From IMG/VR virus record IMGVR_UViG_3300031775_000036, positions 1-25,255 of that record: a stretch of DNA of 25,255 bases. One strand, given 5' to 3'. Shown piece after piece: positions 4,456 to 16,907 of this stretch (positions are counted from its first letter, which is position 1; each line of letters starts with the position of its first letter). The notes beneath the pieces were generated by a model that was given only the letters and a program-made list of their open reading frames with translations, ran no database searches and was not told where the DNA came from. A program made the translations under genes and the position numbers. Origin of the DNA: a virus.

Positions 4456-4568
4456 GCCTGAATTTTGCCACACGTGGTTAAAATTGGAAACTCTATATAT
4501 AGGGTCTGAACAAAAAAAATAAAAAACTCACTCAAAACGCATTAAAGGTATTTTCTCGATTAAGGTTA

Positions 4569-4621
4569 GGTAACATTTCTGACTAAACAAGTAACACCTT
4601 GTTTAACTATAATTTGTTACC
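4569..4621. repeat. nested inverted repeats (dyad)
   Basis: An outer pair GGTAACA (4569-4575) and TGTTACC (4615-4621) encloses a perfect inner hairpin: TAAACAAG (4584-4591), loop TAACAC, CTTGTTTA (4598-4605). The inner dyad has 8-bp arms, the outer 7-bp arms. This could be an operator or origin dyad; there is no T tract of terminator type. Confidence 0.8.
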
Positions 4622-4656
4622 ACTAAGTTATTGATCCATATACATAAAACACCTAA

Positions 4657-4683
4657 AGTAACACAAGTAACGGTAGTAACGGC
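4657..4683 (+). repeat. three tandem 9-bp iterons
   Basis: AGTAACACA, AGTAACGGT and AGTAACGGC follow one another without gaps. Further GTAAC copies occur at 4570-4574 and 4591-4595. Regular spacing of near one helical turn suggests binding of successive copies of one protein. Confidence 0.7.
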
Positions 4684-4829
4684 ATATTTTTAGAAAAATA
4701 AAAAAACTCACTCAGAACGTATATATAGTAATTCCTGTTCCGTGAGCCGTGGCCCGAAAACCCCAACCCCTAAAAACTTGTTTTAAATCAGCGACTTACG
4801 AGCCGTTTCCCCTGAAGGCCTATCTATGC

Positions 4830-4835
4830 GATAAT
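4830..4835 (+). promoter_or_regulatory. candidate -10 for the ATPase-metallopeptidase gene
   Basis: GATAAT differs from TATAAT by one base and lies about 55 nt before the start codon. The best -35, TTTCCC at 4806-4811 (18-nt spacing), is poor. CCTAT and ATAGG flank the element as a short dyad, which may be an operator. Confidence 0.35.
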
Positions 4836-4888
4836 ATAGGAGCGGCTATCTCGGCTGCAATGTGTTCTTTAAAAAGGGAGAAATGCTT

Positions 4889-6376
4889 ATGCCTTATAAG
4901 GCAAAGGGCCGTGCTGTGCCCAAAACAGCACAACGAGCTTGGTTCGACGTTGATCGAAAAGGTCTGTCTCAGTTGATGGCCGACAGGCCCCGGTCGTTCC
5001 TGCTGTCCGAGCTGATCCAAAACGCTTGGGATCAAAACGTGACCAAAGTAACCGTTGAAATCGAGAAGCTCCGTCGCGGCCTCGCGGTCGTACGTGTAGT
5101 GGACGACGACCCCGACGGTTGGTCTGACTTGACCCATGCTTACACCCTCTATGCGCCGTCGGCTAAGAAGGCCGATCCAACGCGACGAGGGCGGTTCAAC
5201 ATTGGCGAGAAGCTCGTCCTGTCCGTGTGCCGTGAGGCGCGGATCGTAACGGTGACCGGCGGTGTCGCATTTGACGCGAAGGGTCGTCACAACCTTCGCA
5301 GCCGACGGGAGTCGGGCAGTCTGTTCGAGGCGACGTTACCGTTGACCGACGTGGACATTCGGGCGTTCGAAATATTTTTCGATAGCCTGATCTGTCCACC
5401 CGGAATCGCGACGACGCTCAAGGTGCAGGATCGGATCGTGACAATAGACGCACGTTCCCCGGTCAGCACGCTGGAACTGACGCTGCCGACAGTCATTGCC
5501 GACGCCGAAGGCAACCTGAAGCGAAGCCGCCGTACCACGACGGTCGAGCTTTACGAGCCGACGGTGGATGAGATGCCCAGCATTTACGAGTTGGGGATCC
5601 CAGTGGTTGAGATTGAAGGGCGCTGGCACTTGAACGTGCAGCAAAAGGTGCCGCTTAACTCTGATCGCGACAACGTGACGCCCGCCTATCTGGCGGAACT
5701 CAGGGTCGCGGTTCTGAACGCGGCGGCGCACTTGCTAGACACCGAGGACTTTTCTGACGCGTGGGTGACAGAAGCTTCATCGGACGTTCGCTGCACGAAC
5801 GAGGTGACGGAGCGCGTGATGACGGCGAGGTTCGGGGACAAGCGGGTCGCTTACGATCCGTCGAATCCCGAAGCGAACCGTGTCGCGGCGGCCCACGGCT
5901 ACACGGTTATCACCGGGGGCACTCTGACCGGCGGCCAATGGGGGAACGCCAAGGCGGCGTCTGCCATAACGGCTGCGGGGCAGAAGTTCCCGACGAGCTA
6001 CGACGCGTATTCGAACGATCCGAATGCGCCCGAAGCGGAAACCGTGGATCCGGCCAATTGGACGGACGACCAACGCGACACGGTAGCGTTTTCTCAGCGG
6101 CTGCACGAGCTACTGCTAGGCTGCTCAACTGAGGTCGTTCTCGTCAAAACCGACAACGCTTTCGCGGCGGCGTACTCAAAGCGGAGTCTGCACCTGAACG
6201 TTGACGCGCTGGGACGACAATGGTTCCGGCGTGAAAACAGAAAAGTTCAGGTGGAGCTACTGCTCCATGAGTTCGCGCACTTCCATGAAAGCGACCACTT
6301 GTCCGAGAATTTTGCGGACACCGTGGGAAGTTTGGGAGCCAAGCTGGCAGCGCACTTGGGTTTGGACAACCTCTAG
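4889..6376 (+). CDS. GHKL ATPase fused to C-terminal HExxH metallopeptidase-like domain
   Basis: A 495-residue protein; ATG 4889 sits 8 nt after AGGGAG, better than ATG 4883. The N-terminal half shows a GHKL (Hsp90/MutL/histidine-kinase type) ATP site: N-box ELIQNAWDQN at residues 41-50, a DDDPDG box at 72-77 and a glycine-rich lid GRFNIGEK at 101-108. A QKVPLNSDRDNV stretch near residue 251 may be part of the transducer fold that completes such sites. A variable Gly/Ala-rich linker follows. The C-terminus has LLHEFAHFHESDHLSENF: HExxH at 460-464, with a nearby His or Glu available as third zinc ligand. ATP-driven remodelling coupled to proteolysis is an inference. It is the only large rightward gene left of 15 kb, with its own terminator, like a moron. 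From memory, unstudied phage 'ATP-binding proteins' of this layout exist. Confidence 0.88.
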   Translation: MPYKAKGRAVPKTAQRAWFDVDRKGLSQLMADRPRSFLLSELIQNAWDQNVTKVTVEIEKLRRGLAVVRVVDDDPDGWSDLTHAYTLYAPSAKKADPTRRGRFNIGEKLVLSVCREARIVTVTGGVAFDAKGRHNLRSRRESGSLFEATLPLTDVDIRAFEIFFDSLICPPGIATTLKVQDRIVTIDARSPVSTLELTLPTVIADAEGNLKRSRRTTTVELYEPTVDEMPSIYELGIPVVEIEGRWHLNVQQKVPLNSDRDNVTPAYLAELRVAVLNAAAHLLDTEDFSDAWVTEASSDVRCTNEVTERVMTARFGDKRVAYDPSNPEANRVAAAHGYTVITGGTLTGGQWGNAKAASAITAAGQKFPTSYDAYSNDPNAPEAETVDPANWTDDQRDTVAFSQRLHELLLGCSTEVVLVKTDNAFAAAYSKRSLHLNVDALGRQWFRRENRKVQVELLLHEFAHFHESDHLSENFADTVGSLGAKLAAHLGLDNL

Positions 6377-6386
6377 TGCCTTTAAG

Positions 6387-6414
6387 CCCGGCCCTTCACG
6401 GGGCCGGGTTTTTT
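6387..6414 (+). terminator. Rho-independent terminator of the ATPase-metallopeptidase gene
   Basis: CCCGGCCC (6387-6394), loop TTCACG, GGGCCGGG (6401-6408) and six T. It begins 10 nt after the stop codon and its T tract touches the end of the convergent small gene. Confidence 0.95.
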
Positions 6415-10863: not shown

Positions 10864-12368
10864 ATTAGGTAGCTCAAATTTAGGTTTTCTGGTTCCACAA
10901 TATATAAGTTTTGTCTTGCGCGTGTTACTCCCACGTAAAAAACGCGGTGCGTGTCATTGTCGAAATCCAACGCGGCTGCGGGCGCTAGATCGGAAAACAA
11001 AACGACGTTATCCGCTTCGCCGCCTTTCGCTTGATGAATGGTGGATAATCGAATACGCGGTTCGGCGTTGAACTTTTCTCCGCGCCGTAACAAGGCGACG
11101 ATGTACGCACGATCGGCATCCGGCAGGCGGTCCATGGCTTCGTGCCAGATCTGGTCCGCACTAGCCACCAATCCGTGTTGTTTCTGAAGTTTTTCCAGTG
11201 TGAACATCGTGGTGTCGTCTTCGAGAATTTTTTTGTGCCCACGGTTGACTCGTACGCCATTTCCGGACATGTATGCATAAATGCACTGAGCCGTGTGCAG
11301 TGAGACTTCGTTCCCTTTCCGCAAAGTTTCCCACCCATTGACAGCTTCGGATAATTTTTCAGAAATCGATCGCTGGCGGGGACGTTCGAAAAGGTAGCCC
11401 ATGGAGCGCAATGTGGTGTCCAGCGGGTCCAGCATGTAATTCGCTTGGGTAAGAATGAGCCATGAGCCGTGGGACAGGTCTGCTTCGGACAGGTCATAGA
11501 TCCGTTCGACGGTGCCCTTTTCCTGCCGGGGCAGGTATCGCTTGGGGTACCGGTCTGTGATCCGCGACACAATTTTATCGGCAACGGTATGGACACTTTG
11601 TGGGATCCGATAGGATTGCTCCAAGGTTTCGGTGCCGCCGGGGAGGTGGATGAATTGATTGATGTCTGCTCCCGCCCAACGGTAGATGGCTTGGTCGTCG
11701 TCGCCCGCGCAATACATTTTTTCGCTGTGCTTATCCAGACCGTGGGCAATGTCCCATTGCAGTGGACTCAGGTCTTGTGCTTCATCGAGAAAGCAGACTT
11801 TGAACCGTGGGCAGTGGTCCGCCATATTTTCCGCAAACATCACGAGCGTATCTGTGTAGTCCAGCAGACCGTTCGCTTTTTTATACTTGTGGTAGGCGCG
11901 GGCCACGTACGACACTTCTTCCCACACGTTATCCAAATGGGATTGGTCGTATTGCGCCCGAACGGAGACTTTCCGCAACCTCGCTAAATTTATGAGGCTT
12001 AGAATGGGGTGGTCCGAGGAAGAAAGTGTTGTTCCATCGCCCACAAAGGGTTCTTTTTTGGACCGTACCAACTCGATCCCAAGGTGCTTTGAAAGCTCAT
12101 GGAAATGTGAGATTTCCATTTGTTGATCTTTGCGAAGCCCGAGGAGCCTGTAGGACAAACTGTGTAATGTGCGAAAGTAGACGAGGTCCTGTTCCGCATC
12201 CAAGTTAAATCGCTTCGCGGCGCGGTCCCGCGCTTCCGTGGCGGCTTTTTTCGTGAACGAGAGGAATGCGATCTGGTTAGGAGGCACTTCATCGGCCAGA
12301 GCTTGATCCACCAGATTCAACAGCGTCGTCGTTTTGCCCGTACCGGGGGGTCCGAAGATCCGAAACAT
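10860..12368 (-). CDS. UvrD/Rep-like superfamily 1 DNA helicase
   Basis: A 502-residue ATP-dependent 3'-5' type helicase expected to unwind DNA ahead of the polymerase or during recombination. All motifs are visible: Walker A GPPGTGKT (6-13), motif Ia FLSFTKKAATEARDRA, Walker B FLDEAQD (193-199), motif III AGDDDQAIYRWAGA (221-234), motif IV with QSYR (251-254), motif V STIHQAKGGEAD (442-453) and motif VI YVGVTRAR (478-485). It is short compared with UvrD (about 720), so the 1B and 2B domains are reduced. Start ATG overlaps the primase stop by one base (TGATG). No DnaB-type helicase is in the window, so this may be the replicative helicase. Confidence 0.95.
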   Translation of the reverse strand: MFRIFGPPGTGKTTTLLNLVDQALADEVPPNQIAFLSFTKKAATEARDRAAKRFNLDAEQDLVYFRTLHSLSYRLLGLRKDQQMEISHFHELSKHLGIELVRSKKEPFVGDGTTLSSSDHPILSLINLARLRKVSVRAQYDQSHLDNVWEEVSYVARAYHKYKKANGLLDYTDTLVMFAENMADHCPRFKVCFLDEAQDLSPLQWDIAHGLDKHSEKMYCAGDDDQAIYRWAGADINQFIHLPGGTETLEQSYRIPQSVHTVADKIVSRITDRYPKRYLPRQEKGTVERIYDLSEADLSHGSWLILTQANYMLDPLDTTLRSMGYLFERPRQRSISEKLSEAVNGWETLRKGNEVSLHTAQCIYAYMSGNGVRVNRGHKKILEDDTTMFTLEKLQKQHGLVASADQIWHEAMDRLPDADRAYIVALLRRGEKFNAEPRIRLSTIHQAKGGEADNVVLFSDLAPAAALDFDNDTHRVFYVGVTRARQNLYIVEPENLNLSYLI

Positions 12369-13906
12369 CAGAAAGGGGAGTCCTTATTTTCCCCGAAATC
12401 TGGGGCAGGCACTTCAACAGCATGCTGTTCGTGCGCCGGAATAGACCAGACGCGGATAGGTTTCCCGCTCACTTTGAGGAGAATCGATTTCCCGTTGATG
12501 TCCCGCAGACGCTGGGCCATCTTGTGCGGTTTGAAATCAAAGAACCGGTTCTTTCGCAGGAAGGCATCAAAATCTTTGAGTCGGAAATATGTGACACCGT
12601 CTTCTTCATCGGTGTAAGGGCGTCTTAAAAGGATTTCCTCCCGTTCACTGGCGCGCTGCTTGCTCGTGCACCACTCTTCGAGGAAATCATAAAACTGTCC
12701 CGCGATGCTGGCGTCCTGACTCACTTCCCGTACGTTTCCCTCGGTTTGCGTCATGTCCATCAACAAGTGGTTCAGGCGTCCTTCCCACACTTCTTTGGTT
12801 TGAGTTCGCGGCATGAAATTCAATTGTTCGACGCAGGATCTCTGGAAGGCGGGCTGGTTCATTAGACCTTCCGTGTCCATTTCCAAGGGCTGTCCGTTCA
12901 CGTCCACAAACCAGACGGGAGGCTGGCTGTTATATTTTCGAAGGTTGGCGATAAGTGTTCCGGTGGCCGTGGCGTCTACGCCGTGCTTTCGTGTCCGGCA
13001 TAAATCAGCATTGCAAAAGGCGTTTATGGGGCTGTCTTTACATTTGTACGTGTAGTCTTTTTTCTGCAACTGCTTGGCGACAACATTGACTTCCGAGAGG
13101 GGCAACGGAGGAACAAGGTAGTTGGCGTTGTAATTCAAAATCTCCGTTTCCCATGCGTCTGGGAAGGCTTTTCGCAAAAAAACGCCGATATTGAACAGGC
13201 CGTTATTTCGGGATCCCTCGGAAATTTTTTGAGAACACAGATGCTGTAGACAGGGAGGGCCGTCGGGAACGGGCGTACCGTCCGTGGCTTCAATGGTCAG
13301 GGCCAGCAACTGCTCTGGAGTTTGAACATGCTTTTCGTGAAGCTCAAAAAACTCGGAAAGTGTGGCAGCGGAGCCGTCATCATGGATAGCGTAGCGCAAC
13401 CCATCGGAGGCATCATAGTACGGAATGTTCAGAAAATTCCCTACATCCCCCCGGTCCAGATTGAGTTGGATCTGTTTAGGAAACACCTCACACGTGCCGT
13501 AGCCCAGCCCTGCGCTCAAACTCTGCAACACCTCTTGCATCTCTTTTGCGGCAATCCACTCCGTGCAGAACAAAAAGCAATGTGCGCCTCCGGATTTGCT
13601 TCGACAAACGACAAGCGGCAATTTTGCTTTGCGGATTTTTTCCACCAGCACTTTGTGGTCCAGCGGATACTCATCAATATCGAGACAACCCCAGCGGCAT
13701 TCGTTCGTTTCGTTGATGGGAATGATCCCAATCGAAACCCCTTCCCCGCTCAAGTGGTTTTCCCACAGAGCCGTGGTTCGTGGTTCGCGAACTAGGCTGG
13801 CTTTTCCTAGATTTTTTCCGTTCGCGTTTTTTCGTTTGACATTGTAGGTTCCGTACGCCTGTCTCAGGCCGTCGAAAATACCTGCAAATTTTCCTGCATC
13901 TGACAT
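12368..13906 (-). CDS. AEP-superfamily primase (TOTE/prim-pol-like)
   Basis: A 512-residue protein from ATG 13906, preceded by AGGGGGG; upstream in-frame ATG 13933 lacks a ribosome site and lies in a hairpin. The AEP catalytic triad is visible: the DxD pair in CLDIDEY (D76, D78), the sxH motif SKSGGAHCFLF (H109) and an acidic EVFPKQ (E140), followed by GNFLNIPYYD. This resembles the primase domain described in TOTE conflict systems and some phages. Around residues 232-280, NNGLFNIGVFLRKAFPDAWE looks like a primase C-terminal helical domain. Cysteines C219, C224, C289, C298 and C303 could bind zinc or an Fe-S cluster. It presumably makes primers for the PolA. The C-terminal ~150 residues contain DNA-binding-like DFDAFLRKNRF. 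Confidence 0.88.
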   Translation of the reverse strand: MSDAGKFAGIFDGLRQAYGTYNVKRKNANGKNLGKASLVREPRTTALWENHLSGEGVSIGIIPINETNECRWGCLDIDEYPLDHKVLVEKIRKAKLPLVVCRSKSGGAHCFLFCTEWIAAKEMQEVLQSLSAGLGYGTCEVFPKQIQLNLDRGDVGNFLNIPYYDASDGLRYAIHDDGSAATLSEFFELHEKHVQTPEQLLALTIEATDGTPVPDGPPCLQHLCSQKISEGSRNNGLFNIGVFLRKAFPDAWETEILNYNANYLVPPLPLSEVNVVAKQLQKKDYTYKCKDSPINAFCNADLCRTRKHGVDATATGTLIANLRKYNSQPPVWFVDVNGQPLEMDTEGLMNQPAFQRSCVEQLNFMPRTQTKEVWEGRLNHLLMDMTQTEGNVREVSQDASIAGQFYDFLEEWCTSKQRASEREEILLRRPYTDEEDGVTYFRLKDFDAFLRKNRFFDFKPHKMAQRLRDINGKSILLKVSGKPIRVWSIPAHEQHAVEVPAPDFGENKDSPF

Positions 13907-13923
13907 GAAACCCCCCTGATCGA

Positions 13924-13944
13924 GACGGCGCATAACGCGCCGTC
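13924..13944 (+). terminator. perfect hairpin before the primase gene
   Basis: GACGGCGC, a 5-nt loop and GCGCCGTC form an 8-bp stem. On the plus strand it is followed by ATAATTTTTTG, so it looks like a rightward terminator that would stop antisense transcripts, although no rightward gene precedes it. In the leftward mRNA it would fold in the primase leader, 18 nt from the start codon, and might control translation instead. Confidence 0.5.
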
Positions 13945-15334: not shown

Positions 15335-15437
15335 AGATTCTCCTGTTTCTTGGTTCGTGTTTCGTGTTTGAAAGGGTGATTGGCCCTTTACGCGGCCTAG
15401 AATGTCTTATATCATTGCACAAGTCAAGGGGAAAACT
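15335..15437. promoter_or_regulatory. divergent control region, replication operon / SNF2 gene
   Basis: A 103-bp gap must hold promoters for both directions. AAAGGG (15371-15376) and CCCTTT (15384-15389) form an inverted repeat with a 7-nt centre, and CGTGTTT is repeated at 15355-15369. For the rightward gene TTTAC at 15387-15391 and TATATC at 15408-15413 are weak boxes; leftward, TTGACT (15427-15422) is a good -35 with a poor -10. A phage repressor could bind the dyad and control both genes. Confidence 0.5.
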
Positions 15438-16907
15438 ATGCTCGCATCGACACGCACTTATGATTTCAAAACGAAGCCCTATGAGCATCAGGCGGTCGCT
15501 CTGAAAACCTCGTGCTTTTCAGAATATTACGCTCTGTATATGGAAATGGGCACGGGAAAAAGCAAAGTTATTGTGGACACGATGGCGTCGCTGTTTGAAG
15601 CAGGACACATTGACACGGTTCTCATTCTGGCTCCGAAGGGCGTTTACGACAACTGGGTCAGAGCTGAGATCCCCCGGCACCTGCCCGACCGCGTCCATCA
15701 CAATTTGGTCCGGTGGCAAAACAACCTCACAAAAAAATTTATTGCTGAGATGCAAGGCATTCTCTATCCAGCCACGCGTGAAGCAGAAACGCTGCACACT
15801 TTGGTGATGAACATCGAAGCCATGAGTACGAAAAAGGGCGCAAGCACGGTTCTCAAATACCTCAAGAACAATCCCAAAAATTTATTGGTCGTAGACGAAA
15901 GCACGGCCATAAAAAATCATAAAGCGCTGCGGACAAAAAACATTATCAAGGCGGCTCAGTTTGCGAAGTACCGGCGAATTCTGACCGGTTCGCCCATCAC
16001 AAAATCCCCTATGGACCTGTACAGTCAATGTACGTTTTTAAGCCCCAAGGCTTTAGGCTTCAAAAGTTTTTATGCGTTTCGAAATCGTTATGCGCGAATG
16101 CAGCAACGTCATATTGGTCCCCGCAGCATTCAGGAAATTGTGGGTTACCAACGGCTCGATGAACTGAATGAAAAGCTTAATCGGTTCTCGCTGAGAACAC
16201 TGAAAAAAGATTGTTTAGATCTGCCCGAAAAAATTTACATGCGCCGAGACGTTCCTTTAACCGCAGAGCAAGAACGCCTCTATCGACAGATGAAAAAGTT
16301 GGCGCTCGCGCAGTTCGATCAAGGAGAACTGGCAACCACTTCTTCTGTTTTGACACAAATCATGAGACTTCAACAAATCACCTGTGGGTTTTTAAAACCA
16401 GACAACGGTGAAATAGAAGAGATCAAAAACAACCGCCTCGACGAACTCATGGCGGTTGTCGAAGAGCTTCAGGGAAAGGCAATCATATGGGCTTCGTGGA
16501 CGCACGATATAGTCCGGATTGACAAAGCCCTGCGCCGTCGCTTTGGAGACGAAGCGGCGGCCTCTTATTTCGGCGAAACCGAACAGAAGCATCGACAGGA
16601 AATAGTCGAAAAGTTTCAGGACCCCGATTCAGAATTGCGGTTTTTTGTCGGCCAGCCGAGAACCGGGGGGTTTGGATTAACTCTCTCCGTCGCTCAGACG
16701 GTCATCTACTTCAGCAACAGTTATGATCTAGAGATCCGGCTCCAGTCGGAAGACCGCGCCCATAGAATAGGTCAAGAAAATAACGTGACCTACATAGATC
16801 TCGTTACTCCCGACACCATTGATGAAAAAATCCTGCAAGCACTGCGGGATAAGATCAATATCTCAAGTCAGGTGCTAGGGGAAAAAGCCCGCGAATGGCT
16901 AATCTAG
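15438..16907 (+). CDS. SNF2-family DEAD-like helicase/ATPase
   Basis: A 489-residue protein from ATG 15438, preceded by AAGGGGAAAACT; the frame is open upstream to 15402 without a ribosome site. Motifs: Q-like YEHQ, Walker A EMGTGKSK (38-42 core), Ia LILAPKGVYDNW, Walker B VVDEST (DES, 153-155, in place of DEAH), III LTGSP, and C-terminal RecA domain with WASW, PRTGGFGLTLSVAQTVIYFS and RLQSEDRAHRIGQ, the SNF2 motifs V and VI. Such phage enzymes translocate on duplex DNA and may remodel protein-DNA complexes in replication or recombination. It is divergent from the replication operon and convergent with the ejection-protein gene, sharing CTAG stop bases. Confidence 0.95.
   Translation: MLASTRTYDFKTKPYEHQAVALKTSCFSEYYALYMEMGTGKSKVIVDTMASLFEAGHIDTVLILAPKGVYDNWVRAEIPRHLPDRVHHNLVRWQNNLTKKFIAEMQGILYPATREAETLHTLVMNIEAMSTKKGASTVLKYLKNNPKNLLVVDESTAIKNHKALRTKNIIKAAQFAKYRRILTGSPITKSPMDLYSQCTFLSPKALGFKSFYAFRNRYARMQQRHIGPRSIQEIVGYQRLDELNEKLNRFSLRTLKKDCLDLPEKIYMRRDVPLTAEQERLYRQMKKLALAQFDQGELATTSSVLTQIMRLQQITCGFLKPDNGEIEEIKNNRLDELMAVVEELQGKAIIWASWTHDIVRIDKALRRRFGDEAAASYFGETEQKHRQEIVEKFQDPDSELRFFVGQPRTGGFGLTLSVAQTVIYFSNSYDLEIRLQSEDRAHRIGQENNVTYIDLVTPDTIDEKILQALRDKINISSQVLGEKAREWLI

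Follow-up and report, generated by a model that had tools for sequence, protein, structure and literature searches.

A recurrent phage fusion of a GHKL ATPase and a minigluzincin-type domain, which may be an ATP-controlled protease

The locus and its genomic setting

The window is a stretch of 25,255 nt from a marine phage (IMG/VR record IMGVR_UViG_3300031775_000036). Its genes include those for a terminase small subunit, a family-A DNA polymerase, a UvrD-like helicase and a TOTE-type primase, together with a Pam3 gp34-like gene. Between the divergent terminase small subunit gene and a leftward gene lies a gene for a GHKL-zincin fusion protein (Table 1). The open reading frame gives 495 aa from the ATG at 4889; a longer alternative start, GTG at 4862, also exists. 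The ATG is preferred since a putative ribosome-binding site is found 8 nt ahead of it.

Table 1. Features of the GHKL-zincin locus in the window, with related loci on other contigs and plasmids (labelled positions)
Feature	Position	Strand	Basis or remarks
AT-rich divergent intergenic region; 43-nt direct repeat (4514-4556, 4694-4736), inverted TATATATAG boxes	4474-4888		Conserved in close relatives
Putative ribosome-binding site AGGGAG	4875-4880	+	Sequence; upstream of ATG 4889
GHKL-minigluzincin fusion gene, 495 aa	4889-6376	+	ORF call, conservation
GHKL (Bergerat) ATPase domain, about residues 18-190	4940-5458	+	Pfam HATPase_c_3/HATPase_c; structure matches to MutL, GyrB, TopoVI-B, Hsp90/TRAP1
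N-box E41-x2-Q-N45-x2-D48, reads ELIQNAWDQ (41-49)	5009-5032	+	E41, N45, D48 in 98/98
GHKL motif II DDDPDG (72-77)	5102-5119	+	D72, G77 in 98/98
ATP-lid glycine motif GRFNIGEK (101-108)	5189-5212	+	G101, G106, K108 in 98/98
Transducer (S5-like) domain, about residues 191-300, with Q252 and R260 (QKVPLNSDR)	5459-5788	+	Structural alignments; Q252, R260 in 98/98
Linker/middle alpha-beta region, about residues 301-377	5789-6019	+	Predicted secondary structure
C-terminal minigluzincin-type domain, residues 378-495	6020-6373	+	Separate model; best match Wss1 5xbn, Z 9.1
Putative zinc motif HEFAHFHESDH (460-470)	6266-6298	+	H460/E461/H464 in 96/98, H470 in 93/98; Wss1 H115/H119/H125 spacing
Intrinsic terminator, 12 pairs, 8 GC	6384-6411	+	Follows stop codon
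Second-family loci	L077:6085-7401, L074:5504-6883, L111:2831-4138, L068:1586-2947 (-), L230:3001-4323, L026:5017-6357 (-)		HExxH minigluzincin-like end; near first family in jumbo-phage contigs
DAC + GHKL-zincin + CHAT rows	L014:7423-9572, L015:5424-7575, L016:5431-7587		Picosynechococcus plasmids
DUF4145 (HEPN-type) + GHKL-zincin + TIR	L043:6670-13026, L041:83-3242		Cyanobium-type loci

The original prediction described this gene as a moron-like cassette, rightward in a leftward region, with its own terminator and a candidate promoter. The gene is indeed rightward but shares this direction with a SNF2-like helicase gene (15402-16907, +), within a region whose genes mostly run leftward. Behind the stop codon lies an intrinsic terminator; as a class, terminator-like sites in the window do not exceed the shuffled number. 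The candidate promoter does not stand out from chance (2 sites observed, 1.0 expected). The divergent intergenic region upstream of the gene may act as a divergent promoter or an operator of the phage. The two exact copies of the motif AAAACTCACTCARAACG are both in this region.

The fusion gene is found at the same place in all six close relatives and in none of the 36 more distant ones with enough upstream sequence. It is a clade-restricted, stand-alone accessory insertion, like an accessory conflict gene; this bears out the moron-like character that had been predicted.

Three further observations were made in the window. The protein encoded at 12368-13933 is of the AEP-TOTE primase type (Pfam E 3e-11); this small phage carries a primase of the archaeo-eukaryotic kind. 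Tandem repeats (37-nt x2.9 and 17-nt x2.5) are present at 52-203, at the contig start, and are possibly an assembly edge effect. Rfam and tRNA scans gave no matches.

Domain layout and predicted structure

The GHKL ATP site and the HEFAH motif noted in the original prediction are both present in this one protein. In Pfam, the window protein matches only HATPase_c_3, below threshold (E 6.7e-5). It has no match to a peptidase domain, none at gathering score to the YgjP-like or WLM families proper, and none specific to Hsp90; its C-terminal domain is a zincin instead. A PHROG search with the window protein gave no match under 0.01. Among 93 relatives, weak Pfam matches are found to YgjP-like (10/93, best E 1.6e-4) and WLM domains (6/93, best E 1.5e-4); a SACS match is also found among relatives. 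Neither the window protein nor its relatives match DUF4263 (the Shedu nuclease) in Pfam.

The AlphaFold model of the whole protein (pLDDT 91.5, pTM 0.78) resembles TRAP1/Hsp90, MutL, GyrB, Topo VI-B and MORC over about residues 6-330, which are modelled as a Bergerat ATPase plus transducer. Hsp90/TRAP1 is the top Foldseek match of the whole model; matches of the ATPase and transducer to MutL, GyrB, TopoVI-B and TRAP1 have Z of about 16 over about 240-320 residues. It is the GHKL part of the protein that accounts for the structural matches to rIIA models. The loop that carries R260 resembles PLNxxR, which we take to be the loop of the Hsp90 catalytic arginine. Because this likeness is one of a short motif, and a PDB sequence search with the transducer alone gave no match, R260 as catalytic arginine is only a lead.

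The 118-residue C-terminal domain (378-495) was also modelled alone (pLDDT 96.1, pTM 0.88). This model has the zincin order of elements: a helix, a beta-sheet, the HExxH helix and a C-terminal helix. Its best match is yeast Wss1 (5xbn; Z 9.1, rmsd 3.1 over 104 residues); further matches are S. pombe Wss1, selecase/jannalysin (jannalysin Z 7.6), abylysin and SPRTN. By Foldseek alone the domain is borderline (best E 1.4e-3). In Wss1, zinc is bound by H115, H119 and H125, and E116 is catalytic (PMC5557861). H460, H464 and H470, together with E461, have the same spacing, HExxHx5H. Structure prediction had been proposed as a check for a third zinc ligand; spacing, fold and conservation point to an accessible three-ligand zinc site with H470 as the third ligand.

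The closest zincin structures, Wss1 and SPRTN, are DNA-protein-crosslink proteases, and for the ATPase part Hsp90 is no closer than MutL, GyrB and TopoVI-B. Both facts are consistent with a DNA-linked protease, in which a MutL/topoisomerase-type clamp would hold DNA while the Wss1/SPRTN-like domain clears phage DNA of bound or cross-linked proteins, or host DNA of its nucleoid proteins. This is considered unlikely. The likeness to Wss1/SPRTN-type structures is at the level of the fold, with 11-23% identity, and no DNA-binding domain is found by Pfam in the window protein or its relatives. The transducer is also acidic (net -11 in the window protein, family median -6), as is the whole protein, and in this it is more like a protein clamp than a DNA clamp; net charge is weak evidence and makes a DNA clamp only less likely.

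Conservation and distribution of relatives

Uncharacterised phage relatives had been expected, and a profile-guided scan found them on at least 158 IMG/VR contigs, many of which are 100-435 kb (jumbo phages); 80 of the 158 contigs were retained. Elsewhere, relatives occur at 33 loci in GTDB genomes and at six in plasmids. Among phage isolates, a single record contains the family of the window protein, that of an uncultured 485-kb phage.

Conservation was assessed in 98 relatives, non-redundant at 90%, most of which are 23-51% identical. E41, N45, D48, D72, G77, G101, G106, K108, Q252 and R260 are invariant. H460, E461 and H464 are kept in 96 relatives, and H470 in 93. Of the residues proposed earlier for such a check, N45, D72, H460, E461 and H464 are thus retained apart from two copies without HExxH. 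One of these is frameshifted and has HELAH...EH in another frame (L037), and the other is truncated to 345 aa (L046); genuine loss of the motif was rejected for both. In a curated alignment of 93 rows, H460, E461, H464 and H470 are all invariant. Relatives as distant as about 23% identity keep the two active sites together. A chance HExxH is expected in about 1-2% of proteins of 495 aa, by our own estimate; conservation across relatives rules out this explanation.

No gene family is conserved beside the phage copies, and flanking genes occur in every orientation. The commonest neighbour cluster, probably a serine recombinase, is present at six loci and at varying distance. As there is no conserved neighbour in phages, the gene probably acts alone. 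Restriction-modification or defence neighbours were considered for the main clade and show no consistent pattern: one Rhodovastum plasmid copy is near HerA-SIR2, and others are near phage-type genes.

The neighbourhoods also bear on a possible role as a phage chaperone-peptidase, which would act in folding or maturation of the phage's own virion or replication proteins. The Hsp90/TRAP1-like fold speaks for this role, and other pairs of chaperone and peptidase are known from jumbo phages, MoxR-vWA-peptidase among them (PMC7824862). It is distinctly unlikely for the fusion protein, given that the gene is patchy and missing from the same site in related phages, and that no linkage to any structural gene family was found among the phage neighbourhoods.

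A second phage family with the same fusion

A second, distant GHKL family, whose GHKL part is phrog_6077, is a near neighbour of the first in five jumbo-phage contigs, at a distance of up to about 5 kb (5 of the 15 viral contigs with the second family). Its members end in a conserved HExxH...DG...H domain, and 14 of the 15 viral loci retain both sites. Homology between the two families extends over the full length (HHalign probability 97.1%, E 6e-11, 378 columns). Since this distant family keeps both sites and is close to the first in five contigs, the pairing of domains is judged to be selected, and the GHKL-zincin fusion to be a recurrent design. The second family is a possible heterodimer partner of the first.

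The protease domain is not universal in phrog_6077. It is absent from the proteins of Pseudomonas, Serratia and Vibrio isolates, while the protein of Moorella phage MTATph1 carries an HETLH version. The members without it indicate that the phrog_6077 ATPase can work without a protease.

A distant cyanobacterial branch

Distant relatives with about 25% identity, mostly from picocyanobacteria, form a clade of their own (support 100) and also keep both active sites. The occurrence of this branch is patchy: 2 of 339 genomes from the phylum have it and, within one order, 5 of 349. On three Picosynechococcus plasmids, the GHKL-zincin gene is flanked on one side by a gene for a single-domain diadenylate cyclase (DAC, E 1.2e-30) and on the other by one for a CHAT protein; this row may be a conflict operon that uses a second messenger. 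The gene has DUF4145 and TIR genes on its two sides in Cyanobium FGCU52 and an uncultured cyanobacterium; DUF4145 is a HEPN family (PMC3710099). DAC, CHAT, DUF4145 and TIR are typical parts of conflict operons, and their presence beside this branch suggests a conflict role. The contexts are few and varied and are suggestive only.

These neighbours also favour superinfection exclusion by a module derived from bacterial defence. The protease would be off until a rival phage is sensed; it would then cut a host or phage protein and the infection would be stopped. The gene is solitary with its own terminator, and the defence protein VcSduA is a precedent for a GHKL ATPase with an effector. Nevertheless, this explanation is unlikely. 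Large, presumably lytic phages hold most of the members, and the benefit of exclusion to such phages is less obvious; in addition, no partner or sensor gene is conserved beside the phage copies. PADLOC gives only weak partial matches to the window protein (TmtA, E 0.001; PDC-M22B, E 0.017).

Proposed mechanism

The best explanation, with a probability of about one half, is that the fusion protein is an ATP-controlled cytoplasmic zinc protease, expressed by the phage, which cleaves a protein of the host or of a competing phage. In GHKL proteins that have a transducer, the closed state is normally an ATP-bound dimer. By analogy, ATP binding would cause the GHKL ATPase and transducer clamp to dimerise and close around a client protein. 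Closure would present the client to the C-terminal Wss1/YgjP-type minigluzincin, or unmask this domain, and the client would be cut. ATP hydrolysis, with R260 as the likely catalytic arginine, would then reset the clamp. Made from the phage's own cassette during infection, the protein would inactivate its host or competing-phage target.

This explanation builds on the architecture, the conserved active sites, the fold matches and the accessory insertion-like distribution; from these we infer dimerisation, ATP gating, proteolysis, a client and a conflict role. The conflict reading is indirectly supported by the clade-restricted insertion and by the patchy bacterial branch with its conflict-type neighbours. 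Several points count against the explanation as a whole: the conflict context comes from a branch that is about 25% identical, the phage copies have no informative neighbours, and some phrog_6077 members have no protease domain at all. Phage proteases can also serve virion maturation.

More tentatively, the families may be read together as a distinct class of ATP-gated proteases, outside the AAA+ and Lon types, in which a MutL/Hsp90-style clamp would shut on a client protein and pass it to a zinc site of the Wss1 type. In jumbo phages, heterodimers may form between the two paralogous families. The distant bacterial relatives may act in second-messenger (DAC) immune operons, either as executioners or as processors.

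Should the protease be under the control of the ATPase, the protein would be an energy-dependent protease built on a GHKL clamp instead of an AAA+ ring. It would be the protease counterpart of the GHKL-nuclease defence protein VcSduA. It would also provide a concrete clue to the rIIA-type phage GHKL proteins, whose counter-defence role is so far unexplained. The protein is a single chain of 495 aa and allows clear tests by point mutation.

Comparison with known systems

No description of a GHKL-zincin fusion was found in the literature searched, coverage of which is incomplete. Both halves are of known kinds; what seems not to have been described is their combination, along with how strictly it is conserved and how it has spread in giant phages. 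The fusion may represent a type of ATP-controlled protease, so far undescribed, that serves in phage-host conflict.

A survey of jumbo phages describes rIIA GHKL proteins with variable C-termini, discussed as counter-defence, and separate SprT-like peptidases (PMC7824862); the survey does not mention a GHKL-zincin fusion. T4-type rIIA and phrog_6077 proteins are, like the window protein, phage GHKL ATPases with a variable C-terminus, and jumbo-phage members of phrog_6077 also carry HExxH. In contrast to the window protein, rIIA is not described with a zincin and many phrog_6077 proteins are without one.

In Hsp90/TRAP1, the C-terminus is a client-binding dimerisation domain; in the window protein it is replaced by the predicted protease. 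The Wss1/WLM, SPRTN and proabylysin/selecase minigluzincins share the C-terminal fold and HExxHx5H, but their known structures have no GHKL ATPase. Prokaryotic MORC/paraMORC proteins are built on a module of GHKL and S5, to which some add an effector at the C-terminus (RecB-like nuclease or Ymh HEPN), and they occur in conflict loci (PMC2292703; for nuclease or HEPN effectors also PMC3710099). Unlike the window protein, no peptidase effector is mentioned for paraMORC (PMC2292703).

VcSduA of Vibrio cholerae is a Shedu-type defence protein whose C-terminal nuclease is proposed to be under the control of its GHKL ATPase (PMC12137116). It resembles the window protein in having an N-terminal GHKL ATPase, a clamp-like middle and a C-terminal hydrolytic effector in one chain, and as a conflict gene of mobile elements. 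The two differ in the effector, which is a PD-(D/E)xK nuclease (DUF4263) in VcSduA and a predicted zinc protease in the window protein.
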